DNA of 64,000 nt from Cyanobium sp. Cruz-8D1 (GTDB lineage Bacteria; Cyanobacteriota; Cyanobacteriia; PCC-6307; Cyanobiaceae), in the NCBI RefSeq assembly GCF_024345975.1, contig NZ_JAGQCD010000001.1, forward strand, positions 186,001-250,000. The letters run 5' to 3'. Below, in pieces: positions 2,600 to 36,056 of this stretch. Positions within the stretch are counted from its first letter, which is position 1. Each line of letters begins with the position of its first letter. The notes below the pieces were generated by a model. That model was not told the origin of the DNA and made no database searches. It saw nothing but the letters and a program-made list of their open reading frames with translations. Position numbers and translations under genes: made by a program.

Positions 2600-3516
2600 G
2601 GGGCCTGGGGAGCCTGGCGGCCCCGGTGACGGCCCCGGCCCAGCAGGGCTCCCAGCCCCCGCAGCCGCTCCGCCGTCACCAGTCCCTGGGGAAAGAACAG
2701 CGGACCGAGCAGGATCACGGAGCCGAACAGGATCAGGCGCAGGTCCCCCACCGGCCGCAGCAGCTCCGGCAGGGCGGTGAGCGCCAGGCCCCCCAGCACC
2801 GGCCCCAGCCAGAAGCGCGAACCGCCGAACACCACGAAGGCCAGGGTGGTGATGCTGGCGTCGAAGCTGCCGACCCTGGCGTTCCAGGCGTTGAGGAAAT
2901 GGGCCGCCAGTGCCCCGGTGACGCCGGCCAGCACGGCGCTGGCCACAAAGGCGAGCAGCTTGGTGCGCGGCGTGTCAATGCCCAGGCTGGCCGCCGCCAG
3001 TTCGTCGTCGCGGATGGCGGCCATGGCCCGGCCCAGGCGGAGGGCCTCCAGCCGCTGGCATAACCAGCAGGCCAGGGCCAGCAGAGCCAGGGTGAACAGC
3101 ACGTAGCCGCCGGGGTGCGCGAAGGGCTGGGGGATGCCGAAGATGCCCATGGCGCCGCCGGTGAAGGGCAGGTTGAGGTTGAGCACCCGCAGGATCTCCA
3201 CCAGGGCGATGGTGGCGATGGCCAGGTAGATGCCCCGCAGCCGCAGCACCGGGCCGCCGATCGCCAGGGCGATCAGTCCCGCCAGGATCCCCCCCAGCAC
3301 CATCTCCGCCAGCAGGGCCCACAGTGGTGAGGTGGCACCGCTGCCGGCGAAGGCGGCAACGCCGGTGGAGAGCAGGGCAGCCACGTAGCCCCCCACCGCA
3401 TAGAAGCCGGGGGTGGCCAGCGACAGCTGGCCGCAGCGCAGGGGCAGGTACACCGAAAGCGCCAGCAGGGCGCCGAGCAGCATCTGTTCGAGCAGGGCGG
3501 CGTCCATGACCCTCAC
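2596..3516 (-). CDS. livM: Branched-chain/neutral amino acid ABC transporter permease LivM
   Basis: Inner-membrane permease, 306 residues, with about eight to ten hydrophobic segments and the LivM hallmarks LRLRGIYLAIATIALVEI and the cytoplasmic loop SLGIDTPRTKLLAFV that contacts the ATPases. The start is GTG at 3516, embedded in the livH stop as GTGA; an ATG nine bases further in is a possible alternative. The C-terminus ends in a basic tail (GRGRHRGRQ), so the last residues are cytoplasmic. It pairs with LivH to form the translocation path. Confidence 0.92.
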   Translation of the reverse strand: MRVMDAALLEQMLLGALLALSVYLPLRCGQLSLATPGFYAVGGYVAALLSTGVAAFAGSGATSPLWALLAEMVLGGILAGLIALAIGGPVLRLRGIYLAIATIALVEILRVLNLNLPFTGGAMGIFGIPQPFAHPGGYVLFTLALLALACWLCQRLEALRLGRAMAAIRDDELAAASLGIDTPRTKLLAFVASAVLAGVTGALAAHFLNAWNARVGSFDASITTLAFVVFGGSRFWLGPVLGGLALTALPELLRPVGDLRLILFGSVILLGPLFFPQGLVTAERLRGLGALLGRGRHRGRQAPQAP

Positions 3517-4442
3517 ACCTTGGTGGGCAGCGGCCGGCCGAGCAGCCCCTGGGGGCGCAGCAGCAGCACCAGAAACAGGAAGCCGTAGCTGACCGCATCC
3601 TTGTAGCCCGACCAGTCGGCCGGCACGAAGGCCTCCGCCAGGCCGACGATCAGCCCGCCCAGGACCGCCCCTGGCACGCTGCCCAGTCCCCCCAGCACCA
3701 GCACCGCCAGACCCTTGAGGCCGTAGCCGATGCCGAAGTAGGGCCCGGCGATGCTGACGCTCAGCCCCACCAGCCCGCCGGCGACCCCGGCCAGGAAGCC
3801 GCTGAGCCCGAAGGCCAGCCGCACCATCGCCGTGCTGTCGATGCCCAGCAACTGGGCGGTTTCGGGGTCTTCGGCCACCGCCTGCAGGCCTTTGCCGTTG
3901 CGGCTGCCCTCCAGCCAGAGGCTGAGCAGGGCCAGCAGCAACAACGCGATCCCCAGCAGCAGGGCCTGCACCGTGCGCACCCGGGCACCGAGGAGGGGGA
4001 AGGAGGCCGGCAGGCCGCCGAGGACGCTGGTGGGGATGGCATAGCTTTCGGCCCCCACCAGCAGCTGGATCAGGTTCACCAGGATCACACCGGCCCCCAG
4101 GCTGGTGATCAGGGCCAGCAGCGGATCGGCCCGGCGGCGGCGCAAGGGCCGGAAGGCCACCCGCTCCACCAGCAGGGCCACCAGGGCCGCCCCCAGCCCC
4201 GCCAGGGGCAGGGCGCCCCAGAAGGGCAGGGCGACGGGCAGCTGGAAACCGGCCAGCAGGCCGTTGGCCCCGACCGCACCGCCGATCAGCAGGTAGGTGA
4301 AGTAGGCCCCCAGGGTGAACACCGCCCCGTGGGCGAAGTTGATCACCCCGAGCACCGAGAACACCAGGGTGTAGCCGAGGGCGAACAGCCCGTACACCGT
4401 CCCCACCGACAGACCGTTGACCAGGATCTGGAGCAGGTCCAC
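3513..4442 (-). CDS. livH: Branched-chain/neutral amino acid ABC transporter permease LivH
   Basis: Second permease of the importer, 309 residues. The N-terminus LLQILVNGLSVGTVYGLFAL and the motif VINFAHGAVFTLGAYF are diagnostic of LivH/UrtB-type permeases; the ATPase-coupling loop is AEDPETAQLLGIDSTAMV. Its start lies seven bases after the livK stop. Multiple membrane helices span nearly the whole chain. Family and role are clear. Confidence 0.93.
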   Translation of the reverse strand: MDLLQILVNGLSVGTVYGLFALGYTLVFSVLGVINFAHGAVFTLGAYFTYLLIGGAVGANGLLAGFQLPVALPFWGALPLAGLGAALVALLVERVAFRPLRRRRADPLLALITSLGAGVILVNLIQLLVGAESYAIPTSVLGGLPASFPLLGARVRTVQALLLGIALLLLALLSLWLEGSRNGKGLQAVAEDPETAQLLGIDSTAMVRLAFGLSGFLAGVAGGLVGLSVSIAGPYFGIGYGLKGLAVLVLGGLGSVPGAVLGGLIVGLAEAFVPADWSGYKDAVSYGFLFLVLLLRPQGLLGRPLPTKV

Positions 4443-4449
4443 CCGGGGC

Positions 4450-5649
4450 TTACTTGAGCAGGGCGAAGCGTCCGTTGCGCCCGCCAGGATCCATGCGCAC
4501 CTGGGCCACGAAGAACTGGCTCTGGATCACCTCACCCTCGGGGGTAAAACGGATCTCCCCCAGGGGGGTGGCATAGGTGCCGGCCAGGAGCTCCTGCATC
4601 AGCTGCTTGCGGGTCGCCGCCAGGGGGGCGCCGGCCAGGGGCTGGCGTTGGTCGAGGCGCACCAGGGCCTCGCCGATCACCTGCAGGGCTGTGTACGCCT
4701 GGGCGGTGAGCTGGGGCGGGATGGCGCCGCCCTTGGCGGCCTTGAACGCCTTGAGGAAGGCGGTGTTGGCCGGGGTGTCGAGTTCGGGGCTGTAGGCCTG
4801 GGCGATCAGCAGCCCGTCGCAGTACTTCTGGCAGATCGGGTAGATGTTGGGGGTGTTCATGCCGTTGCCGGCCACGATCAGGCCCCGGTAGCCCAGCTCC
4901 CGCAGCTGGCGGATCAGGTTGCCGCCGTCCACCGCCTGCAGCGACAGCACGATCAGATCGGGCTTCTCCCGCAGGGCCGCGCTGATCTGGTTCTGGAAGT
5001 CCTGGTCGTTGAGCTGGGTGCGCTGCACCGTCACCGGCTCGAGGCCCTTCTCCTTGAGGGCCTCCTGGAAGATGGTGGTCTCGGCGGTGCTGTAGGCGTC
5101 GTCCTGGGCATAGAACACCGCCGCCCGCTTCAGCCCCGGCTGGATCTTCAGGGCCCGATCAATGGCCAGGGGAGCGATCACCGAGCTCTGGGCCGAGACC
5201 CGGCTGATGAAGAAGCCGATCTCCGGGATGCCGGTGGCCGTGTTGGAGGGGGCCACCACCGGCACGCCGCGGCGCTGGGCGATGGGGTCGGCGGAGAAGG
5301 CCTGCTGGGAGAGGGTGGGGCCGACCAGGGCCAGCACGCCCCGGTTGATCTGCAGGGTGAAGGCCGCATTGGCCCCCGGTTCGTCGCTGCCGCTGTCCTC
5401 CAGGGCCAGCGTCAGGGGACGGCCGTTGATGCCGCCGCTGCCGTTGCGCTGCTTGAGGGCCAGCTCCAGGCCGATCTTCTGGTCCTGGCCGTAGACGTTG
5501 GCGTTCCCGGTGAGGGCCAGCACCGCCCCCACCGGCACACCCGCGGCCACATCCACGGGTTGGCTGGCGTCATCGCTGCCGCAAGCCGCCAGCAGCAGGG
5601 TGAGGGTCAGCAGCCCCGTGCCGACCCGCAGGAGACGACCGACGCTCAC
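4450..5649 (-). CDS. livK: Amino-acid-binding lipoprotein of the Liv/Nat ABC transporter
   Basis: Periplasmic type I solute-binding protein, 399 residues. It begins with a lipoprotein signal peptide (hydrophobic stretch, then the lipobox LLAAC), so the mature protein should be lipid-anchored at Cys. The fold signature follows: [34 protein letters not shown] and [13 protein letters not shown] are typical of LivK/NatB. The start is GTG, sharing its bases with the hemL stop (GTGA). It feeds LivH/LivM. A neutral or branched-chain amino acid ligand is inferred from the family; UrtA (urea) looks less likely. Confidence 0.9.
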
Positions 5650-23364: not shown

Positions 23365-25890
<2,526 letters not shown>

Positions 25891-25910
25891 GGCTGGACGG
25901 TCATGGGCAC

Positions 25911-25931
25911 ACCCTCACCCTCACCCTCACC
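25911..25931. repeat. Hexamer tandem repeat in the glgP leader
   Basis: Three and a half copies of CCCTCA lie 21-41 bases upstream of the glgP start. They could be a slippage-prone element affecting the leader; no coding frame is involved. Confidence 0.6.
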
Positions 25932-26030
25932 AGGGATGGTTAAGACCCGGGGGCAGCGGCATCAACGTGGGCTTGGGAAGATGGGAGGGCCTGCCAGCGT
26001 TCCATTCCCGACCCTGAAGCCCAGCCCGGG

Positions 26031-27971
26031 GTGGCCAGCACTCCGTCCTCCGTTCCCGGGGCGTCCTGCCCGCGGGAAGGTGCGGTGCTCATCTGTGGCC
26101 TCGGATCCCTGGGCCAGGCCTGCCTGCTGCGCCTGCTGCCCTTCGACGTGCCGCTGCGCTGTCTGGACCGGAAGCGGCCGGACTGGCGCGATCCCCGCCT
26201 GGAGGAACGCTTTGGATCCTCGCTGGTGCTCGGGGACATGCGCCTGCCCCATGTGCTCTCCCAGGCCGGGGTGGAGACGGCCCGCGCTGTGTTGTTGCTG
26301 AGTTCCGAGAGCACGGTGAACGTGGAGGCGGCGCTGCAGGTGCGGTTGCTCAATCCCTCGGCCGACCTGGTGGTGCGCTCCTCCGGCCAGCTGGCCAGCC
26401 TGGGGGCCCTGCTCGAGGAGCGCCTGCCCGGGGTGGCCGTGGTGGATCCCCTGCTGCTCACGGCCGGGGCCGTCACCGAGGCCCTGCGGCCTGGCCACCA
26501 GGAGGCCTGCTTCCGCGTCGATGGTCAGTCGTACCTGGTGGTGGAGGGAAAAGACCTGGATCGACGGCAGCAGCGCTGCCTGCGTCAGGCCTCTGCGGAC
26601 CCGGCCCGACCCCTGCAGGTGATTCCGATGGGGTCCCACCACCACCGTTCGTCGGACGCCGTCCCCGCCACGACGGCCAGGGGCCGGTGGATGGCCCTGC
26701 GCCGCGGCCTGGGGGCACCGCTGCGGCTGTGGCGGCATCGCAGCCGGCTCCAGCAAGGCGTGCTGCTGGGGCTCGTGCTGCTCATGGGCCTCGGACTGGC
26801 CCTGTTCTCCGCCGGCGGCGGCTGGCGCCAGGGGTTGTTCGTCACCCTGTCCCTGCTGAAGGGGGAGTACGTCGATCCGGTGAACGTGATGCTGCCTGCG
26901 GATGACGGCATCGCCGCGGCGGCCCCCTGGATGATCGGCCTCACCCTGCTGTATTCCCTGCTCGGAACGCTGCTCACCTCCGCGCTGGTGGCGGTGATCC
27001 TGGAACGGTTGCTGCGGGAGCGTTTCGGATTGGGCCATCCCGGCCGTTTCCGGCGTGGCAGCCGCTGGATCCTGCTGGCCGAGGGGGAGGAGCTTGCGGT
27101 GCGGGTGGCCGACAACCTGGTCAGGGACGGACTGCAGGTGCTGCTGATCGATTCGCGACCTGCCCAGCCCCTGCACCGGCCGGGGTTGGTGGTCTTCCAC
27201 CGCTGGGAAGCGGCGCTCGCCGCGCTGCAGCACTGCAGGCTGGAGGGGATCGGTCTGCTCTCCGTGGATCTGCTCGCCAATCTTCAGGAGACCTTCCAGC
27301 TGCAGAAGTCCTGGCCTGACGCCCGCTACGCCATCCTGTCCCATGCGGTCGAGGCGGCCGAACGACTCGGCGACCTGCTCGGTGGTGTGGCGGTGATCTC
27401 CAGCATGGATCTGGTTGCGGATGCCGTGGTGGCCACGGCGTTCGGCGAACGGGTGGAGGAGATCTGCCGGATCGATGGGGCCAACCATCTGCTGGTGCGC
27501 TACCGGATTCAGCAGGGCGATGCTTTGTCGGGTCTGAACCTCTCCAGGATCGAGCATGGCTACGGAGTCACCACCATCCATCTGCTGCGTCCCGGGCGCC
27601 GTTCCCCCCTGGTGTTGCCCTCCCTGGATCTGGTGCTGGCGGCGGGCGACCAGCTGGTGGTGCTGGCCACCCTGGCGCAGCTGCGGCGGGTCGAGCTGGG
27701 CCGTCCGGATCCGCCTGGATGGCGCCTGCGCCTGCAGGGCTCCCCCCGGCAGGAAGGTCGCTTCGAGGCGCTCCAGTCCCTGGCCCGGCACCTGGGTGGC
27801 GCGCCGGGGGCGATGGCCCCGCTGCTTGATGGCGCCGACCATCTCACCCCAGCTCTCGACCGCGAGCTGGCCGAACAGCTGGCGGAGGAGTTGCGACGTC
27901 AGGGCATCCGCAGCCACTTGGAATCCGTATCCGTGCGTGAATCCACCCAGTCCATGGGCAACGGTGCATGA
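26031..27971 (+). CDS. Membrane protein with two RCK (TrkA-N-like) domains and a non-canonical pore
   Basis: A 646-residue protein. An N-terminal Rossmann RCK domain (GLGSLGQACLLRLLP, about 22-36; acidic DR after beta 2) is followed by a linker, then two membrane helices (about 242-260 and 300-324) that enclose a pore-helix-like stretch, GLFVTLSLLKGEYVDP (268-283). A second RCK module (about 345-480) has lost the glycine motif (ILLAEGEELA), and a TrkA-C-like domain (about 485-570) follows. The layout resembles two-RCK ion channels such as CASTOR/Pollux, but the usual TVGYGD filter is absent. GTG start. Its stop overlaps the start of the pyruvate-kinase-like gene (ATGA). Ion selectivity cannot be predicted. 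Confidence 0.8.
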   Translation: MASTPSSVPGASCPREGAVLICGLGSLGQACLLRLLPFDVPLRCLDRKRPDWRDPRLEERFGSSLVLGDMRLPHVLSQAGVETARAVLLLSSESTVNVEAALQVRLLNPSADLVVRSSGQLASLGALLEERLPGVAVVDPLLLTAGAVTEALRPGHQEACFRVDGQSYLVVEGKDLDRRQQRCLRQASADPARPLQVIPMGSHHHRSSDAVPATTARGRWMALRRGLGAPLRLWRHRSRLQQGVLLGLVLLMGLGLALFSAGGGWRQGLFVTLSLLKGEYVDPVNVMLPADDGIAAAAPWMIGLTLLYSLLGTLLTSALVAVILERLLRERFGLGHPGRFRRGSRWILLAEGEELAVRVADNLVRDGLQVLLIDSRPAQPLHRPGLVVFHRWEAALAALQHCRLEGIGLLSVDLLANLQETFQLQKSWPDARYAILSHAVEAAERLGDLLGGVAVISSMDLVADAVVATAFGERVEEICRIDGANHLLVRYRIQQGDALSGLNLSRIEHGYGVTTIHLLRPGRRSPLVLPSLDLVLAAGDQLVVLATLAQLRRVELGRPDPPGWRLRLQGSPRQEGRFEALQSLARHLGGAPGAMAPLLDGADHLTPALDRELAEQLAEELRRQGIRSHLESVSVRESTQSMGNGA

Positions 27972-29800
27972 CGGATGTGAGTCCTCCCCCGGACCGCTGG
28001 CTACTCGAGACGTTGCAGGCCCTGAGGACCACCCTGGGGCGCATCGAGGTGGAGGAGGAGGCTTGCCTGGAGGCCATTCACCCCGAGTACGGGGACAGTG
28101 CCCGCAACCTGCTGCATTTCATCGCCTTCCATCGCCATGCCCATCCGGGCTTGCCGAAGGCGTTGCGACAACGGGGGCTCTGCGCTCTCACCGATTGTGA
28201 CCCCCACCTGCTCTCCAGCCTGGAGGCGGTGATCACCGCTCTCGAAGCGCTCGAAGGTCTGGGACCGTCGGCGCAGGCGGCACCGCCGAGCGTCTTCCAG
28301 GGCCAGCCTGGTCCAGGTCAACTGCAGCACCATTGCGACCGGTTGTTCGGAGCCCTGGCCGCCGCCGGAGTTGCCGGAATCATGGTCACCCTGCCGGCGG
28401 AAGCGGCCGAGCGACCCGCCCTGATCGCCGATCTGCTGGAGGCGGGGATGACCATCGCCCGCATCAATTGCGCCCATGACGACCCCGTGGTCTGGGGCCG
28501 GATGGTGGACGGGCTCACCCAGGCCAGGCTGGCCACCGGCCGCCCCTGTGCGATCGCCATGGATCTGGCGGGCCCGAAGCTGCGCACCGGCCAGCTGGCC
28601 CTCCAGCCCGCGGTGATCCGGGTGCGCCCCCCCCGCGACCGCATGGGACGACCCAGCCAACCGGTGCGGATTCTGGCGGTGCCGCCGGGAGCCATGCCCC
28701 CGCCGCCGGACACCGAAGCCGTGCTGGTGCCGGTGCGGCTGTCGAAGGCGAAGCGCTTGAAGGCGGGCGATCGGTTGCGGGGGCGTGACGCCTCCGGCCG
28801 CCGGCGGATCCTCACCGTGGTGCGGTCTGGCCCCGATGGGGTGCTGCTGCAGGCCGACCAGACCTGCCGCTTCCGCTCCGGCCTGGTGTTCCGCCAGCGG
28901 CATCGCAAGGCCCGGCTGCGCGTCGGTCCGCTGGCGCCGGTGAGCGGCGAACGGCTGCTGCGCCCGGGCGACGCCATCCGTCTGACACCGGAGCCGGACC
29001 AGGGCGGCGGCACACTCCCCTGCACCCTGCCGGAGGTGTTCGGCGATCTGCGCCTCGGGGAACGGGTGCTCTTCGACGATGGCCGCATCGGCGGTGTGAT
29101 CCGGGGGGTGTCCGCCCAGGAGGTGGTGCTTGAGGTCACCACGGCGCAGGCCAAGGGCAGCCGGCTTCGCTCCGACAAGGGGATCAATTTCCCCGACAGT
29201 GACCTGCGCACCCCGGCGCTGACCGCCAAGGACATCGAGGACCTGGCGTTCGTGACCCAGCACGCCGACATGATCAGCTATTCCTTCGTGCACAGGGATT
29301 CCGACATCCAGACCCTGCGCCAGTGCCTGGAGGAGAGGGGCCGGGGGGATCTGGCGGTGGTGCTCAAGATCGAAACCCGTCAGGCCTTTCTCAACCTGCC
29401 CCGGCTGCTGCTCGCGGCCATGGGCCACGGGGCCCCGGTGGGGGTGATGATCGCCCGGGGCGACCTGGCGATCGAGTGCGGCTGGGAGGCCCTGGCGCCG
29501 ATTCAGGAGGAGATCCTGCGGATCTGCGCCGCGGCCCACGTCCCCTGCATCTGGGCCACCGAGGTGCTCGACACCCTGGCCCAGCACGGCCATCCCACCC
29601 GCGCCGAGATCACCGATGCGGCCATGGGGGCCCGGGCCGATGCGGTGATGCTCAACAAGGGACCCAACATCACGGCCACCGTGAAGGTGCTGGAGGCGAT
29701 CGTGGCCCGCAGCGCCAGTGACAGGAGCGACCGCAGCCACCCCTTGCTCACTTGCCTGGCGTTCCGCAGCAACTGTGTAACCGACGAGCCGCTGCCGTGA
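27968..29800 (+). CDS. Enlarged pyruvate-kinase-like protein
   Basis: A 610-residue relative of pyruvate kinase. Residues 1-120 are a helical extension. The TIM barrel then shows MTIARINCAH (161-170), MDLAGPKLRTG (198-208), KGINFPD (404-410), the catalytic Lys467 in VVLKIET, metal ligand Asp499 in ARGDL and PTRAEITDAAM (543-553). The span between the second and third motifs is about 200 residues, roughly twice normal, so the lid (B) domain is enlarged. The C-terminal allosteric domain is missing. GPK replaces GPE: Lys at this site marks K+-independent pyruvate kinases. The Ser of the K+ site is Ala. The start overlaps the RCK gene by four bases. It could be an active phosphotransferase or a repurposed one. 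Confidence 0.82.
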   Translation: MTDVSPPPDRWLLETLQALRTTLGRIEVEEEACLEAIHPEYGDSARNLLHFIAFHRHAHPGLPKALRQRGLCALTDCDPHLLSSLEAVITALEALEGLGPSAQAAPPSVFQGQPGPGQLQHHCDRLFGALAAAGVAGIMVTLPAEAAERPALIADLLEAGMTIARINCAHDDPVVWGRMVDGLTQARLATGRPCAIAMDLAGPKLRTGQLALQPAVIRVRPPRDRMGRPSQPVRILAVPPGAMPPPPDTEAVLVPVRLSKAKRLKAGDRLRGRDASGRRRILTVVRSGPDGVLLQADQTCRFRSGLVFRQRHRKARLRVGPLAPVSGERLLRPGDAIRLTPEPDQGGGTLPCTLPEVFGDLRLGERVLFDDGRIGGVIRGVSAQEVVLEVTTAQAKGSRLRSDKGINFPDSDLRTPALTAKDIEDLAFVTQHADMISYSFVHRDSDIQTLRQCLEERGRGDLAVVLKIETRQAFLNLPRLLLAAMGHGAPVGVMIARGDLAIECGWEALAPIQEEILRICAAAHVPCIWATEVLDTLAQHGHPTRAEITDAAMGARADAVMLNKGPNITATVKVLEAIVARSASDRSDRSHPLLTCLAFRSNCVTDEPLP

Positions 29801-29812
29801 TCGAAACCCAAA

Positions 29813-29833
29813 CTGATCGGCGGAGCCGATCAG
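29813..29833. terminator. Perfect hairpin between convergent genes
   Basis: CTGATCGGC, GGA loop, GCCGATCAG: a 9-bp perfect stem between the ends of the pyruvate-kinase-like gene and the convergent small gene, whose stop codon it contains. There is only a weak T run (three Ts) on the minus side; probably a bidirectional terminator. Confidence 0.6.
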
Positions 29834-30117
29834 CCCTTGGAGGCGTCAAACAGGGAATCGCGGGTGAATTTGAGATTTTTCCAGATCTTCTTGATCTTCG
29901 CGTAGGCCTGGTCCTGGCTCATCTTGCCGTTGGCCTGAAGGCCCACGATCAATCCCACCTGGTCGGCGAAGGTCTCCAGGTTCTGGTGAAACATCAGCCG
30001 CTCCGGGCTCCAGTCGCTGCCGCGATAGCTGCTATGGGCCTCCATGGGAGATTGGACCTCCCTCTCCTGCCGGTCGAGTTCGGGATTGGAGGGTCCCATG
30101 GAGGGCTGGTTCGTCAA
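29830..30117 (-). CDS. Conserved hypothetical protein
   Basis: A 95-residue soluble protein: a polar N-terminus (about 1-30), then a helical part with MFHQNLETFADQVGLIVGLQ and MSQDQAYAKIKKIWKNL. It resembles small unannotated picocyanobacterial proteins, but I cannot name a family. Convergent with the pyruvate-kinase-like gene; a short AT-richer spacer separates it from corA. Confidence 0.7.
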   Translation of the reverse strand: MTNQPSMGPSNPELDRQEREVQSPMEAHSSYRGSDWSPERLMFHQNLETFADQVGLIVGLQANGKMSQDQAYAKIKKIWKNLKFTRDSLFDASKG

Positions 30118-30220: not shown

Positions 30221-31348
30221 TTGAATCGTGGCAACAACCGGAATCCCGTGGTGCGACTCACCCCAGGGGCGCTGAGCTCCCAGCGCCTGGAGCAGCGTCC
30301 GGCGGGCCTTCCCACCCATCTCTACGTCCATGGCGGACTCGGGCCCACCCGGGCCGACGCGGTGCTGTTCCTGGAGTCCGGACCGGTGCGGACCACAGCC
30401 CCTGCCATCGAGCAGCTGGCCAGCCTGCGCAGAGCGGGCACCCCCCTGTGGCTGCGCCTGCAGGGGCTCGGCGATCGCCGCTACATCCAGCAGCTCCTGG
30501 AGCACCTGGAGGTGCCGGCGGTGCTGCTCGCCCCCCTGCTGGAGGTGCCCCAACGGCCCCAGGTGAACGGCCTGGAAGATGTGCTGCTGGTGGTCCTGCA
30601 CCGGCTCAGTTTCGCCAAGGACCCGGCCCATCTGGTCAGCGAACAGGTGGGGCTGGTGCTGCTGCCTGGGTTGCTGATCACCATGGAGGAAGGCTGCGGC
30701 GGCGATCCCTTCCCCGATCTCACCGAGTGGCTGCTGTCCAAGTCGGGGTCCCTGGCCGACAGGGACCTGGACGACATCCTGCACTTTCTCATCGATGACC
30801 TGCTCGATGACCTGTTCCCGATGCTGGAGGCGATGTCCCAGCGGCTCGATGCGCTGGAGGAGTCCTCCCTGCGCAACCCCCGCCCCCTGATCCTGCGCCG
30901 CTCCTACGAATTCAGGAGCAATCTGCGCATCATTCGCACCTTGATCTGGCCGCTGCGCCACCAGATCCGTATGCTCCTGCGCCAACGGCAACGGCTGCTG
31001 GGCACCGAGGCCCTGGAGGGCTTCCGGGACATGGCCGAACTCGTCGACCAGTTGTTCGAGGCCTGCGGGTCGCTGCGGGGCCAGTGCGATGCCATCACCC
31101 AGTCCTATGCGGCCAGCGTCGGCAACCGGATGAACCAGGTGATGAAGACCCTCACCATCCTCACCAGCATCTTCGCGCCGCTCACGTTCATCGTTGGGAT
31201 CTATGGCATGAACTTCGAGTTCATGCCCGAGTTGAAATGGCGCCACGGTTACGCTTTCGTCATGGTGCTGATGCTCCTGATCGCCACGCTGCAGGCCTGG
31301 TGGCTCTGGCGGCGGGGCTGGTTCCAGGACTGGACAGGGCAGGGCTGA
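30221..31348 (+). CDS. corA: CorA-family magnesium/cobalt transporter
   Basis: A 375-residue homo-pentameric cation channel protein. The N-terminal cytoplasmic domain is mostly helical; two helices at the C-terminus flank the universal YGMNFEFMPEL loop, whose GMN motif is the selectivity site. The C-terminus is Trp/Arg-rich (WWLWRRGWF) and cytoplasmic. The longest frame starts at TTG 30221; GTG 30248 or 30251 are equally plausible. Mg2+ is the likely physiological substrate. Confidence 0.95.
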   Translation: MNRGNNRNPVVRLTPGALSSQRLEQRPAGLPTHLYVHGGLGPTRADAVLFLESGPVRTTAPAIEQLASLRRAGTPLWLRLQGLGDRRYIQQLLEHLEVPAVLLAPLLEVPQRPQVNGLEDVLLVVLHRLSFAKDPAHLVSEQVGLVLLPGLLITMEEGCGGDPFPDLTEWLLSKSGSLADRDLDDILHFLIDDLLDDLFPMLEAMSQRLDALEESSLRNPRPLILRRSYEFRSNLRIIRTLIWPLRHQIRMLLRQRQRLLGTEALEGFRDMAELVDQLFEACGSLRGQCDAITQSYAASVGNRMNQVMKTLTILTSIFAPLTFIVGIYGMNFEFMPELKWRHGYAFVMVLMLLIATLQAWWLWRRGWFQDWTGQG

Positions 31349-31414: not shown

Positions 31415-32518
31415 GTGTCCCTCCTCCGCTGGTCTGGAACCATGGTCCTGAAGCTGCCTGCGACAGTCCGGTCGAGGGGCGTGATGGCCTGCAGTGGAGT
31501 GGGTGTCCTCCTCGGCGGCTGGCTGACGTCGTCGCTGGCACCGGTGCCCGCCCAGGCCCAGACGGGGACGGCTCCTGTGGTGCGCATTGAAGGCTCCAGC
31601 ACGGTGTTCCCGATCATGGAAGAGGCCGCCAAGGCCTTCCAGAAGCGCCAGGGAGATCGGCCGGTCAGCATCGCCCTGAAGGAGACGGGCAGCTCGGCCG
31701 GGATGCGCAGCTTCTGCCGCGGGGAGATTCCGATCAGCAACTCCTCCCGTCCGATCAGCTCCAAGGAGCTCAAGGCCTGCGCCGCCAAGGGGGTCACGTT
31801 CATTGAACTGCCGCTGGCCTTCGATGCCATTTCGGTGGTGGTCCATCCCAGCAACAGCTGGGCCAGCCGCATCAGCACGGCCGAGCTCTCCACCCTGTGG
31901 AACCGCAAGGCGCAAGGGCACATCAAGCGCTGGAAGCAGGTGAATGCCGCCTGGCCGGATCGGCCGATCAATCTGTGCGGTCCAGGGGCAGACTCAGGAA
32001 CGTTCGATTACTTCAACAAGGCGATCAATGGGGATTCACGAAATTCCCGCACCGATTACACCGCCAGTGAAGACGATAACGTTCTTGTACGTTGTGTTGA
32101 GAAAAACCCTCTGGCGCTGGGCTATTTCGGTTTTTCCTACTACCGCGCCCAGGCCGGCAAGCTCAAGGCGCTCGCCATCACAGGTCCGAAGGGCACCTGG
32201 CCACCGACCATCAACAACGTGCAGCAGGAGCGCTACGTGCCCCTGTCGCGTCCCTTGTTCGTCTACATCAACGACAAGGATCTGAGGGATCGGCCCGAGG
32301 TGCGTCGCTTCATCACCTTCACGGTCCAAGGGGGGTTGCGTTTCAGTGAGCGGGCCGGTGTGATCCCCCTGCCTCCGGACACCTATCGTGTTGTTGAATC
32401 CAAGCTTTATCGCCATCTGATCGGCACCTCCTTCGGGGGCGATCTGCCCATCGGGCTCTCGATCAACGAAGCGATCCGGCGCAGCTTCGAGCAGATCCGC
32501 TCGAAATCACCCCGCTGA
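31415..32518 (+). CDS. Phosphate-binding periplasmic protein (PstS/SphX type)
   Basis: A 367-residue (or 358 from ATG 31442) phosphate-binding protein. The signal peptide ends at APVPAQAQ. The phosphate-loop motifs are IEGSSTVFPIMEEA, KETGSSAGMRSFCRGE and the ADSGTFDYF stretch; FGFSYYRAQAGKLKAL is typical of the SphX/PstS subgroup. No pstC/A/B genes are adjacent, so it is a stand-alone binding protein serving a transporter encoded elsewhere. The nearby phoB-phoR and Crp regulator fit phosphate control. Confidence 0.9.
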   Translation: MSLLRWSGTMVLKLPATVRSRGVMACSGVGVLLGGWLTSSLAPVPAQAQTGTAPVVRIEGSSTVFPIMEEAAKAFQKRQGDRPVSIALKETGSSAGMRSFCRGEIPISNSSRPISSKELKACAAKGVTFIELPLAFDAISVVVHPSNSWASRISTAELSTLWNRKAQGHIKRWKQVNAAWPDRPINLCGPGADSGTFDYFNKAINGDSRNSRTDYTASEDDNVLVRCVEKNPLALGYFGFSYYRAQAGKLKALAITGPKGTWPPTINNVQQERYVPLSRPLFVYINDKDLRDRPEVRRFITFTVQGGLRFSERAGVIPLPPDTYRVVESKLYRHLIGTSFGGDLPIGLSINEAIRRSFEQIRSKSPR

Positions 32519-32536: not shown

Positions 32537-33508
32537 ATGGCCAGCCCGCACGATGACCACCCGTTCAGCAACGGAGCGTTCGCCGTCGATCTGATCGCTC
32601 GCTTCACCGACAAACTGGTGTCCCTACAGGGGCCGGTGCTGGCCGACAGCGACCCCGAACCCCTGCATCAGATGCGGGTGGCGTTGCGGCGGCTGCGCAC
32701 CTGCCTGCACCAGTTCGCCCCCGCCCTGCAGCTTCCCAGGGCTGTCGCCGACCCCCGACTGGCCAAGACAGTGCGGCGGCTCGGCATGGCGCGGGACCTC
32801 GACGTGCTGCGGGAACGGCTGGAGAAGGATCTGATGCCCGAGCTGCCCGAGGCGGAGCGGAAGGCCCTCAAGCCGGTGTTGAAACAGCTGCGGCGCGAGC
32901 GGGCCCTGGCCTACGAGCAGGTGGTCTCCACCCTGCAGAGCGGCGGCTATCTGAAGTTGCTCTCCCAGCTGCAGGGCTGGCTGCGGCATCCCGAGTTCAC
33001 GCCGCTGGGGGAACTGCCGCTGCCGGGGTGGACCCTGGAGTGGCAGGCCCCGATGATCGCCGGGCTCTTCCAGCATCCCGGTTGGTTCATCGTCGAGCAG
33101 GAGGGGGACATGGAACGGGTCCACGACCTTCGCAAGCGACTCAAGGCAGCCCGTTACGGCCTCGAAAATCTCGGCGCCGTCACCGGCTCGCGCTGCCGGC
33201 AGTGGGTGGTTGAACTGAGGGATCTGCAGGAGCTGTTGGGGGAGCTCAACGATCTCAATGTCCTGGAGCGGGCGATCGATGACCAGTTGCCGTCCGGACT
33301 GGCCAGGAGCCTGCCGGCTCTGGAGGCCCTGCTGGACCACAGGGCCCAGGGCTGTTGGGAGCAGTGGCGGCAGCGGGCCGAGGGTCTGATGCTCCCCGAA
33401 CGGCGCCTGAGCCTGTCGATGGCCCTCTGGCTGGAGCGGGGCTCCGACAGCCACTGCGACAGTCACCTGGATTCGGCCCTGCCGGCCCTGGCCTTACCAA
33501 GCCCTTAA
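32537..33508 (+). CDS. CHAD domain protein
   Basis: A 323-residue alpha-helical protein with the conserved histidine/arginine motifs of CHAD: PLHQMRVALRRLRTCL near 36-52 and VHDLRKRLKAARYGLENL near 195-213, both bearing the basic surface that binds polyphosphate. Its place 18 bases after the phosphate-binding protein gene and just before the phosphate regulators supports a polyphosphate role. No fused CYTH (phosphatase) domain is present. The polyphosphate link is known for the family; the exact function here is inferred. Confidence 0.88.
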   Translation: MASPHDDHPFSNGAFAVDLIARFTDKLVSLQGPVLADSDPEPLHQMRVALRRLRTCLHQFAPALQLPRAVADPRLAKTVRRLGMARDLDVLRERLEKDLMPELPEAERKALKPVLKQLRRERALAYEQVVSTLQSGGYLKLLSQLQGWLRHPEFTPLGELPLPGWTLEWQAPMIAGLFQHPGWFIVEQEGDMERVHDLRKRLKAARYGLENLGAVTGSRCRQWVVELRDLQELLGELNDLNVLERAIDDQLPSGLARSLPALEALLDHRAQGCWEQWRQRAEGLMLPERRLSLSMALWLERGSDSHCDSHLDSALPALALPSP

Positions 33509-33533
33509 CCAAAGCACTACCAGCCCTTTGCTC
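33493..33533 (+). promoter_or_regulatory. Pho-box candidate: 11-bp-periodic direct repeats
   Basis: CTTACCAA, CTTAACCA, CACTACCA and CTTTGCTC start at 33493, 33504, 33515 and 33526, each 11 bases apart with 3-base spacers. Three of them fit the cyanobacterial Pho box (8-bp units, 3-bp spacers, unit like YTTAAYYW). It overlaps the end of the CHAD gene and precedes the Crp-type regulator by about 55 bases. Confidence 0.6.
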
Positions 33534-33585
33534 GATTCCGGGGTGTTGCTGCATACAGTTCGGTGCATCCAACGCGCTTTTCCCG

Positions 33586-34218
33586 ATGGTATTCACGCCT
33601 TCCCGTGAATCCGGCAGCAAAGATGGATTCCGCGAGCTTCTCGAAGCCAATTATCAGAAACGCAGTCTGGTTCATGTCAGTGCCGGCAGCCATGTGCCGC
33701 TGCTGAAAAATAATGTCTGGCTTGTGGTTCGCGGCATGGTCAAACTCAGTGCCATCACGATTCACGGCGATGACATGCTGCTCGGGCTGGCCGGCCCCAA
33801 CGAACCCTTTGGTGATCCCCTCAACGGCGTCGAGGCCTACGCCGCCACCACCCTGGCCGACACTGACCTGCTCTGCCTGAGTTGCAGCGAGATCCGTCAG
33901 GACGGTGCCCTGGCTGTGGCCATGCTCGAGGCCCTCGGCCTGCGCCTCCACCAGAGCCAGGCCCTGCTGGCCCTGATGGGGCTCAAGCGCGTCGATGAAC
34001 GGGTTCGCGGTTTTCTCGAACTGCTGGCCAGTGAGTATGGCCAGCCCTGCGAATCGGGCCTGCGCCTCAACCTGCGCCTCACCCACCAGGAGGTGGCCAG
34101 TGCCCTGGCGACCACCCGCGTCACCGTCACCCGCGTCATCGGTGCGCTGCGTGATGAAGGCTGGTTGCAGCTGGACGGCCAGCGCCGCCTCGTGGTCAGC
34201 TATCTCCCACGTCGTTGA
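33586..34218 (+). CDS. ptrA: Crp/Fnr regulator, PtrA candidate
   Basis: From ATG 33586, 210 residues: a shortened cNMP-binding-like domain (LLKNNVWLVVRGMVKLSAIT, MLLGLAGPNEPFG) and an HTH_Crp with RLTHQEVASALATTRVTVTRVIGAL. No cyclic-nucleotide-binding motif or FNR cysteines. In marine picocyanobacteria PtrA, a Crp-type phosphate regulator, is encoded beside phoB-phoR; the same arrangement here (regulator, then phoB, phoR) supports the name. A Pho-box candidate lies just upstream. Confidence 0.78.
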   Translation: MVFTPSRESGSKDGFRELLEANYQKRSLVHVSAGSHVPLLKNNVWLVVRGMVKLSAITIHGDDMLLGLAGPNEPFGDPLNGVEAYAATTLADTDLLCLSCSEIRQDGALAVAMLEALGLRLHQSQALLALMGLKRVDERVRGFLELLASEYGQPCESGLRLNLRLTHQEVASALATTRVTVTRVIGALRDEGWLQLDGQRRLVVSYLPRR

Positions 34219-34262
34219 GTCAGTTCTGGGATCTGCCTCCCGCAGACGCCGATAATGCCGGC

Positions 34263-34955
34263 ATGCACCCCCCCCTCCTAGTCGTCGAGGACGACGACAC
34301 GATCCGTGAAACGATCCGCGACGTCCTCGTGCTGGAGGGTTTTGCCGTCACGGCCTGCGGCAATGGCCGGGAGGCCCTGCGCACCCTGCAGGAATGCCCG
34401 CCGGGGGAGGAGTTTTCCCTGGTGGTTCTTGATCTGATGCTGCCCGGTCTGGGGGGCCTGGATCTCTGCCGCCAGCTGCGGTTGGCTGGCAACCAGACCC
34501 CCATCCTCGTGGTCAGCGCCCGCGACAGCGAAACCGACCGGGTGCTGGGGCTGGAGGTGGGCGCCGACGACTACCTGATCAAGCCCTTCGGCCTGCGGGA
34601 GCTGGTGGCCCGCTGCCGGGCCCTGCTGCGCCGCAGTCGCTCGCAGGAGGTCGCGGCCAAGGTTCTGCAGCACGCCAACCTGAGCCTCTTCCCTGAGGAA
34701 TGCCGGGTCACCCGCGATGGCCTGGAGGTCAATCTCTCCCCCAAGGAATACCGGCTGTTGGAGCTGTTCATGCAGAACCCGCGCCGCGTCTGGAGCCGCG
34801 ACAAGTTGCTGGAGCGGGTCTGGGGTTACGACTACTTCGGCGACAGCAAGACCGTCGACGTTCACATCCGCTGGCTGCGCGAAAAGCTGGAGGCCAATCC
34901 TTCGGCCCCCGAGCATCTGATCACCGTCCGGGGCTTCGGCTACCGCTTCGGCTGA
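34263..34955 (+). CDS. phoB: Phosphate response regulator PhoB/SphR
   Basis: An OmpR-class response regulator, 230 residues from ATG 34263 (a TTG at 34215 would add 16 residues). Receiver domain with acidic pocket VVEDDD, phosphoacceptor Asp57 in VVLDLMLP and Lys in YLIKPFG; winged-helix DNA-binding domain with LSPKEYRLLELFMQNP, RDKLLERVWGYDYFGDSKTV and VRGFGYRFG. It is immediately followed by the kinase gene (TGA then ATG). It should bind Pho boxes under phosphate limitation. Confidence 0.93.
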   Translation: MHPPLLVVEDDDTIRETIRDVLVLEGFAVTACGNGREALRTLQECPPGEEFSLVVLDLMLPGLGGLDLCRQLRLAGNQTPILVVSARDSETDRVLGLEVGADDYLIKPFGLRELVARCRALLRRSRSQEVAAKVLQHANLSLFPEECRVTRDGLEVNLSPKEYRLLELFMQNPRRVWSRDKLLERVWGYDYFGDSKTVDVHIRWLREKLEANPSAPEHLITVRGFGYRFG

Positions 34956-36056
34956 ATGGGCCTGCTGCTGGCCGGGCTGCTCGGGCTTGCCCTCGGCTGG
35001 CTGCTGGGGCGCCGCCGCCGCCGCCCCGGTCAGGGCCTCTCCGGGCTTTCGTTGCGCCAGCTGCTGCGTTGGATCGGCGAGGCCCCCGATGGCTGGTTGA
35101 TCCTCGATGGCGCCGATCGCATCCAGTTGATCAACCTGCGGGCTGAAAAGCTGCTGGATGTCCCCGGGGCCGGTCTGGGCCGCCAGGAACCGCTCGAGAT
35201 GGTCTGCCGTTCTGCCGAGCTGCTCGAAGGGATCCGCAACGCCCGCCGGCGGGAGCGGCCCCAGCGGCTGGACTGGGAGCCGGGCGATCAGCAACTGGCG
35301 GTGGTGATTCTGCCCGGCGATGACGGCTGGGTGGCGCTGCTGCTCCAGAGCCGTCGTTCGCTCGAAGCCCAGCTGGAGCAGCAGGAGCGCTGGGTGAGTG
35401 ATGTGGCCCACGAACTCAAGACGCCCCTCACGGCCCTGCTGCTGGTGGGGGACAGCCTGGCGGCCCATGTCAACGACGCCAATGCGGTGCTGGTGGAACG
35501 GCTGCAGCGCGAGTTGCTGCGGCTGCAGCGGCTCGTCGGTGATCTGTTGGAACTCTCCCGACTGGAGAACACCCTGCCGGAGGGGGTGCGCCTGCGCAGC
35601 CGTGTCGATCTGCCCCAGCTGGTGCAGCAGGTGTGGCTGGGTCTGCGCCCCCTGGCCGAGCGCCGCTGCATTCGCCTGGAGCTGGCGGCGGAGTCCCCCC
35701 TGGGCGTGCTGGGCGATGGCTCGCGGCTGCACCGGGCGGTGCTCAACCTGCTGGACAATGCCCTGCGCTACAGCCCGGACGGTGGCACGGTGCTGGTAGA
35801 GATTGAGGCGACGGCGGGCTGGTGCCTGCTGACCATCCGCGACGAGGGCCCCGGCCTGAGTGAGGACGACCTGGAGCACATGTTCGAGCGCTTCTATCGC
35901 GGTGATCCCTCCCGGGTGCGCAGCGACCGGGGCGGCAGCGGCCTGGGCCTGGCGATCGTCCAGCAGATCGCCGTCACCCACGGCGGCCGCATCCAGGCCA
36001 CCAACCACCCCGGCGGTGGCGCCGTGCTGGAACTGTTGCTGCCGGCAGCGGCCTGA
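34956..36056 (+). CDS. phoR: Phosphate sensor histidine kinase PhoR/SphS
   Basis: A 366-residue kinase. One N-terminal membrane helix and an Arg-rich stop (LGRRRRRP), a PAS-like domain (about 35-130: GWLILDGADRIQLIN), the H-box with phosphorylated His152 in VSDVAHELKTPL, then the catalytic domain: N-box NLLDNALRYS, G1 DEGPGL, F-box MFERFYRGD, G2 GGSGLGLAIV. No periplasmic domain, like SphS. Starts directly after the phoB stop. Confidence 0.93.
   Translation: MGLLLAGLLGLALGWLLGRRRRRPGQGLSGLSLRQLLRWIGEAPDGWLILDGADRIQLINLRAEKLLDVPGAGLGRQEPLEMVCRSAELLEGIRNARRRERPQRLDWEPGDQQLAVVILPGDDGWVALLLQSRRSLEAQLEQQERWVSDVAHELKTPLTALLLVGDSLAAHVNDANAVLVERLQRELLRLQRLVGDLLELSRLENTLPEGVRLRSRVDLPQLVQQVWLGLRPLAERRCIRLELAAESPLGVLGDGSRLHRAVLNLLDNALRYSPDGGTVLVEIEATAGWCLLTIRDEGPGLSEDDLEHMFERFYRGDPSRVRSDRGGSGLGLAIVQQIAVTHGGRIQATNHPGGGAVLELLLPAAA

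Follow-up and report, generated by a model that had tools for sequence, protein, structure and literature searches.

Positions 26,031 to 29,800 of the window, the 64,000-nucleotide stretch of Cyanobium sp. Cruz-8D1 analysed here (NCBI RefSeq assembly GCF_024345975.1, contig NZ_JAGQCD010000001.1, positions 186,001 to 250,000 of the forward strand), carry two overlapping genes. Protein 1 is a channel-like membrane protein in which RCK domains stand on either side of two hydrophobic segments, and protein 2 is an enlarged pyruvate kinase, referred to below as the long kinase. With moderate confidence we read the pair as two members of a phosphate/glycogen neighbourhood that are co-translated in one Cyanobium-like clade and do not form an obligate complex. 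The features of the pair are listed below (coordinates of the window, strand, description).

26031..27971, + strand, RCK - two hydrophobic segments - RCK membrane protein, 646 aa from GTG at 26031 (TrkA_N, TrkA_C, family profile, hydropathy)
26838..26891, + strand, filter region FVTLSLLKGEYVDPVNVM, containing GEYVDP (family alignment, hydropathy)
27968..27971, + strand, stop/start overlap ATGA of four bases, shared by the RCK and kinase open reading frames (ORFs)
27968..29800, + strand, long pyruvate kinase, 610 aa, with N-terminal domain, barrel, enlarged lid and no C domain (Pfam, NF011314)
27968..28375, + strand, kinase N-terminal domain, ~136 aa, with no Pfam family and no credible solved relative
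28604..28957, + strand, lid insertion of the kinase, residues 213-330, with 27 K/R versus 8 D/E

Conservation of the overlap and of the gene pair

The four-base overlap, described in the initial annotation of this DNA, is present in the window and is kept at all 12 related loci (L061-L072, found with protein 1 and named as Cyanobium, Synechococcus, Aphanothece, Microcystis elabens or uncultured), with ATGA as the shared sequence in 11 of the 13 and GTGA in the other two. Within the close clade the overlap is thus a conserved translational unit. Among 25 genus genomes, the window's included and several of them incomplete, the two genes are adjacent in 12 (with the kinase broken in some of these), are both present but on different contigs in two (G010, G024) and are both missing from seven; RCK occurs alone in two (G019, G020) and the kinase alone in two (G001, G016). 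G020, a one-contig genome, has RCK without the long kinase, and in G014 the kinase is split over two frames, possibly through a sequencing error.

Outside the one Cyanobium-like clade the two genes are mostly apart. The RCK profile is matched at 1e-15 by 257 of 291 genomes of the class (many weakly) and the kinase N-terminal domain by 75. Co-occurrence across cyanobacteria, proposed as a check in the initial annotation, is seen as a statistical tendency: with the genus and family f1 excluded, 51 of 73 kinase-positive genomes have an RCK match at 1e-100 or better, versus 95 of 182 kinase-negative ones (Fisher p 0.012), and with the 33 f1 genomes entered as negatives p is 0.00015, the counts having been read by hand and then recounted and the tests ignoring phylogeny. 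Physical proximity is rare. In a set of 63 kinase loci outside the genus (L090-L152, from 60 of the 73 kinase-positive genomes, the 13 left out including short or split matches) a gene of the RCK-transmembrane-RCK (RCK-TM-RCK) type lies near the kinase at three, convergent in L093 and upstream in L094 and L150, versus ~0.3 expected by chance (P 0.003; chance estimates for neighbours are based on genomes of 5 Mb with 1.5 RCK copies and are uncorrected for phylogeny). The single translational unit first proposed therefore stands in the close clade and does not extend beyond it, where the homologues separate widely and an obligate RCK-kinase link is refuted.

Protein 1 is an RCK-TM-RCK protein with an altered filter

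In protein 1 TrkA_N covers residues 19-118 and TrkA_C residues 488-555, each above the Pfam cut-off, and both domains are found in 14 of 14 members of the RCK family (Pfam, E up to 1). Hydropathy peaks in 19-residue windows begin at residues 244 and 306, on either side of LLKGEYVDP, and the predicted secondary structure fits a helix, short helix, helix arrangement. Pfam, hydropathy and alignments thus agree with the first description of the protein, in which two RCK domains surround two hydrophobic segments with LLKGEYVDP in place of a K+ filter. The start is uncertain: all 13 loci have a GTG at 26085 (residue 19) and 10 of them have the one at 26031, so that translation may begin at 26085. 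AlphaFold2 models from shallow alignments (13 and 9 close rows) have a mean predicted local distance difference test score of 47.7 for protein 1 and protein 2 alike, too low to carry a structural claim.

A TVGYGD-type K+ selectivity filter is absent from protein 1, with GEYVDP standing in its place, and the Pfam pore domain Ion_trans_2 is matched weakly by 3 of 14 family members (best E 0.0078) and not by protein 1. In the 48 readable rows of the family alignment (20 extra rows being hand-picked among the best-scoring matches, not random, and two empty rows removed) a G[YF]GD filter is read in 21 of the 32 rows from outside the genus, among the matches listed, versus 0 of 16 genus rows. The glycine motif of the N-terminal RCK domain (CGLGSLG) is conserved in the window clade. 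The second Rossmann glycine motif is lost there, reading AEGEEL or similar in the genus versus GLGRLG or similar in relatives.

The best solved-structure match for a profile of the 14 family members is GsuK (PDB 4gx5), whose LGFGD filter aligns with the GGYGD column of the family. The domain order differs, being RCK-TM-RCK in protein 1 and TM-RCK-RCK in GsuK, so that the GsuK-type layout is not found here, and unlike GsuK the window clade has a GEYVDP filter and no second glycine motif. GsuK is described in the available parts of PMC3510474 as a double-RCK K+ channel that is activated by ADP and NAD+ and has weak K+ selectivity. The motifs of protein 1 suggest that it acts in sensing and that its selectivity for K+ is weak or absent. 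CASTOR/POLLUX, considered as a candidate identity, has no supporting Pfam match among the families listed, and no bacterial CASTOR/POLLUX homologue appears by title or abstract start in the open-licence literature searched. Those same titles and abstract starts do not describe an RCK-TM-RCK family, a silence that counts only weakly as evidence of absence. With its K+ filter eroding and its N-terminal sensing motif persisting, the family offers a natural series on the fate of former K+ channels.

Protein 2 has the form of a modelled family of long pyruvate kinases

Pfam finds the pyruvate kinase barrel in protein 2 and does not find the C domain. With active-site positions numbered as in the rabbit enzyme, R73, N75, K270, E272, D296 and T328 are all kept in the window kinase and S77 is replaced by Ala. 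Protein 2 is predicted from these residues to carry a pyruvate kinase active site and to convert phosphoenolpyruvate (PEP) and ADP to pyruvate and ATP. The alignments also display the N-terminal domain (~135 residues) and the lid insertion (~100 residues), so that the original description of active-site residues, N-terminal extension, enlarged lid and missing C domain is borne out by Pfam, NF011314 and alignments together. The catalytic residues and barrel are common to canonical pyruvate kinase (PykF/PykA; M. tuberculosis pyruvate kinase), from which the window kinase differs by its extra N-terminal domain, larger lid and lack of a C domain, and by MLNKGP in place of the MLS[GN]ET loop.

The NCBIfam profile NF011314 (PRK14725) spans an N-terminal domain and an enlarged lid matching those of the window kinase and likewise has no C domain. 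The window kinase scores 632.1 bits, slightly below the cut-off of 642, with residues 12-588 aligned to profile positions 18-599 of 614; two copies, from Marinobacter (863.6 bits) and G252 (808.8 bits), pass the cut-off, and so does L092 (651.1 bits), a short form that lacks the lid insertion. Because NF011314 already covers the window kinase, its extended N-terminus, its large lid and the lack of a C domain mark a modelled family and not a unique enzyme. For this family the titles and abstract starts of the open-licence literature searched give no function beyond the name and no phosphate neighbours, again weak evidence of absence. A third Vibrio pyruvate kinase was rejected as a relative of the long form, since its 1461-bp gene, as given in the available part of PMC6069732, is too short.

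The lid insertion is shared with the Hymenobacter, Marinobacter and Thiodictyon kinases and is missing in the shorter cyanobacterial forms L090-L092. It is strongly basic in 12 close relatives (25-30 K/R versus 5-10 D/E), as in the window, and more so in this clade than in the sister and other-phylum copies measured (K/R versus D/E of 14-17 versus 9-16 in L086-L089, 16 versus 9 in Hymenobacter, 19 versus 15 in Marinobacter, 16 versus 17 in Thiodictyon and 13 versus 12 in G252). A polyphosphate-binding lid was rejected as a family trait given the weaker basic charge of these copies. Also rejected was a CHAD-like fold for the N-terminal domain, to which profile comparison gave a probability of 0.2 percent; PDB matches of this domain, mainly designed barrels over ~20 residues, were discarded.

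The kinase carries a K+-independent signature

The loop DLAGPKLR places Leu at position 113 and Lys at position 117 of the window kinase, and the Thr113 and Glu117 of the K+-dependent type are not found. Pyruvate kinases with Glu117 are reported to be K+-dependent and those with Lys117 K+-independent (available parts of PMC4284704, PMC8835810 and PMC5501398), and Lys117 mutants of the rabbit enzyme to have a much higher need for Mg2+ (PMC8835810, same scope). Lys occupies position 117 in 66 of the 68 long-kinase ORFs from L086-L152 (one has Asn and one is unmatched) and is also found in the ordinary cyanobacterial kinases observed (DLQGPKIR), among them the second such enzyme encoded in the genome of the window. 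As a lead only, a gene for the Mg2+ transporter CorA lies 0.4 kb from the kinase in the window, ~2.5 kb from it in Thiodictyon and ~5 kb in Sphingobium.

Coupling of the kinase to K+ is unsupported because Leu113/Lys117 is the K+-independent signature. The four-base overlap at all 13 loci, the three RCK neighbours outside the genus where ~0.3 are expected and the higher frequency of RCK in kinase-positive genomes would agree with a channel-like protein and a kinase acting as one functional unit, K+ state controlling pyruvate kinase flux. However, such a unit sits poorly with the kinase signature, with the missing K+ filter of protein 1, with kinases broken at 4 of 12 named loci beside a constrained RCK gene (see below) and with the occurrence of either gene alone in genus genomes such as G020, and we consider it highly improbable. 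The link between ion state and carbon flux drawn in the initial annotation is accordingly not supported, in view of the signature, the absent filter and the loss of the kinase under continued RCK constraint.

Relaxed selection on the kinase alone

At four of the 12 named loci (L065, L068, L069, L070) the kinase is broken, the frame remaining open with part of the barrel end deleted and with ends that differ. The catalytic Lys is altered in three of the four (Arg, Arg, Thr), L068 being excepted, and three of the four keep the tail LTCL[AS]F at their C terminus. The window kinase and those at eight of the twelve other loci have intact catalytic residues. The branch ratio of nonsynonymous to synonymous substitution rates (dN/dS) is 0.71, 0.65, 0.77 and 0.55 for the broken kinases versus 0.25-0.37 for nine intact copies (three-point estimates), and 0.11-0.25 for RCK in the four genomes with broken kinases. 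Relaxed selection thus acts on the kinase alone, with RCK still constrained.

The open frames left after loss of the barrel end, together with the retained tail, could indicate that the kinase-like protein is turning into a regulatory, non-catalytic pseudoenzyme that keeps the N-terminal domain and lid. We regard this as very improbable: the dN/dS of 0.55-0.77 is as expected from decay, high G+C allows broken genes to remain open, and catalytic residues persist in the window and in eight of twelve other copies.

The L068 kinase (3076-4770), compared with L063 and L067, has kinase and RCK distances that are discordant within one operon. It lies near the L067 kinase (dS 0.11), whereas the RCK genes of the same pair are separated by 0.39. 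Because the two distances disagree, the kinase gene alone was probably exchanged between strains.

A phosphate-response island adjoins the pair

The neighbouring genes in the window are as follows.

23365..25890, - strand, glycogen phosphorylase glgP, divergent upstream neighbour (Pfam, locus comparison)
29830..30117, - strand, DUF7219 small protein
30221..31348, + strand, CorA Mg2+ transporter (TIGR00383, above cut-off)
31415..32518, + strand, PstS family phosphate-binding protein (TIGR02136, above cut-off)
32537..33508, + strand, CHAD domain (polyphosphate-binding) protein (PF05235, 158.3 bits)
33355..34218 (ORF as listed), + strand, PtrA, Crp-family phosphate-stress regulator (NF053664, 342.7 bits versus cut-off 300)
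34215..34955, + strand, PhoB-type response regulator (best match TIGR02154, 224 bits, under the cut-off of 296.2)
34956..36056, + strand, PhoR-type histidine kinase (best match TIGR02966, 186.3 bits, under the cut-off of 334.2)

The match to PtrA spans residues 92-286 of its ORF, and the true start of the protein is probably downstream of the listed one. The long kinase lies between glgP and the corA-pstS-CHAD-ptrA island, which is followed by the PhoB-/PhoR-type genes, and a gene for a cyclic nucleotide monophosphate (cNMP)-binding protein is found along with glgP upstream of RCK. The gene order from RCK to CHAD, plus all or part of glgP, is repeated in 12 of 12 close loci. PtrA is described as a CRP-family regulator acting below PhoBR in phosphate stress (available parts of PMC11098088 and PMC12260270), and CHAD domains as binding polyphosphate (PMC6537752, likewise in part). 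Like the cyanobacterial Pho island (pstS, ptrA, phoB, phoR), the window has PstS and PtrA above NCBIfam cut-offs and then PhoB-/PhoR-type genes; unlike it, the window adds CorA, CHAD and, upstream, the RCK-kinase pair and glgP. Because of this adjoining island the kinase is better assigned to phosphate and storage-sugar metabolism than to a K+-controlled partnership with the channel.

The lone strong tandem Pho-box pair in the 20-38 kb part of the window (CTTACCAA and CTTAACCA, 11 bp apart, at 33493-33511) lies at the CHAD stop and before ptrA, one pair being observed versus 0.05 in 20 base shuffles.

Surroundings of the genes in other lineages

In sister lineages the two genes are separated and each is found among similar genes. 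RCK is accompanied by pstS, glgP (in several frames) and phoX in L085 and is preceded by phosphoketolase (xfp) and acetate kinase (ackA) in L083, while the kinase adjoins phoX in L089 and occurs in the order cNMP-pstS-kinase in L087 and L088. The shared theme of the neighbourhood is phosphate, glycogen and acetate metabolism. In L087 the cNMP, pstS and long-kinase genes have the genes for KdpC and KdpD (K+ transport; 722-2484) upstream of them.

Outside the genus a CHAD gene is the neighbour of the long kinase, in the same orientation, at 16 of 63 loci, 11 of them in family f23 and the remainder in f2, f7, f15, f24 and f26, and at 10 of the 16 the CHAD frame stops 7-67 bp ahead of that of the kinase (gaps measured to frame edges rather than start codons). 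CHAD genes are present in all 67 kinase-positive genomes searched, mostly in single copy, and ~0.2 such neighbours would be expected by chance under simple assumptions versus the 16 observed; since 11 of the 16 belong to one family, the formal probability overstates the case. PstS is nearby at 6 of 67 loci, of which 4 are among the 63 outside the genus. Across the 67 loci the kinase has other recurrent neighbours, namely PEP synthase (9), P-type ATPase (9), phosphofructokinase (7), acetate kinase (5), phosphoketolase (4) and PPK2 (3), from single-linkage clusters with one representative per named cluster checked by Pfam and with sensor kinases (17 loci) and ABC ATPases (14) set aside. A gap of 22 bp separates the glgP frame from the kinase frame in L126, where both lie on one strand.

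Plasmids carry the kinase as well, with 164 matching records and 3 places that cover 80 percent. Among seven plasmid neighbourhoods viewed (7 kb on each side, with incomplete gene tables) three have pst or CHAD genes: Hymenobacter has pstSCAB beside the kinase, Thiodictyon has pstS and CorA near it, and Marinobacter has CHAD 4.5 kb away plus phbB. The Sphingobium, Nostoc, Paracoccus and Skermanella plasmids carry the shorter kinase form, and the Sphingobium neighbourhood includes two CorA genes.

The pair may also have no functional link at all, its overlap and neighbourhood being gene order inherited in a small clade by two genes with ordinary, separate roles. Adjacency that is largely limited to one clade, kinase decay that leaves RCK constraint unaffected, and nine distant RCK loci without the probed phosphate/glycogen neighbours are all consistent with this explanation. 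It accounts less well for the recurrence of the same gene types (pstS, glgP, phoX, xfp/ackA) next to the two genes where they stand apart in the genus, and for the kinase being found next to CHAD in six further families and with pst genes in other phyla, and we judge it somewhat unlikely.

Proposed role of the pair in phosphate and glycogen metabolism

We return to the reading of the pair as members of a phosphate/glycogen neighbourhood. Several results weigh against it. Outside the genus, 47 of 63 kinase loci have no CHAD neighbour in the stretch examined and 59 of 63 have no PstS nearby, and given PEP synthase, phosphofructokinase and other carbon genes the theme of the neighbourhood may be carbon instead of phosphate. 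The nine RCK loci of other cyanobacteria (L073-L081) have no match to the CHAD, PstS, GlgP, CorA or kinase probes, so that the phosphate company of RCK is limited to the genus and L093, L094 and L150; generic response-regulator/sensor-kinase matches occur in three of the nine. None of these phosphate/glycogen neighbour genes is found at the sister loci L084 (RCK) and L086 (kinase), and pst and CHAD genes are absent from four of the seven plasmid neighbourhoods (Sphingobium, Nostoc C052, Paracoccus, Skermanella). A simple consensus scan of 20-38 kb found no tandem Pho box upstream of RCK, and direct PhoB control of the RCK-kinase pair is therefore unsupported.

From gene content, overlap, signatures and selection we infer a substrate, a condition, an ion and a mode of regulation for the phosphate/glycogen reading as follows. 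The long kinase would be a second isozyme alongside the ordinary pyruvate kinase, making pyruvate and ATP out of the PEP that glycogen breakdown yields, at times of phosphate scarcity or of phosphate storage as polyphosphate, and the condition for its action would be the mobilisation of glycogen under phosphate stress or in the dark. The RCK protein, a putative nucleotide-sensing channel relative with a decayed K+ filter and second glycine motif, might act in the same condition, either as a sensor or as a path for cations with weak selectivity. The gene overlap would couple translation of RCK and kinase, and neither protein would require the other.

A more specific proposal, which we hold to be improbable, is that the long kinase family is polyphosphate-linked and works with a CHAD partner to pass the PEP phosphoryl group to an ATP/polyphosphate pool, RCK sensing ADP/NAD+ and passing counter-ions for phosphate storage after losing its K+ selectivity. 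The CHAD neighbours in six other cyanobacterial families, and the phosphate-uptake or CHAD genes near the long kinase in two other phyla, give a family so far named from sequence a testable context, and with it a route to how cells link the final step of glycolysis to phosphate supply.

The glgP-RCK gap and further glgP copies

The motif GGTTAAG, with partly conserved flanks, occurs in the gap between glgP and RCK (25890-26031) in the window and at 11 of the 12 loci, L070 having GGTTAAC. The motif was rejected as a Pho box, being a single Pho-like half site only. Further glgP copies are present in the window's genome on contigs C82 (85 percent DNA identity) and C12 (71 percent). Seven of the 12 named contigs stop inside glgP, where near-identical copies perhaps break assemblies.

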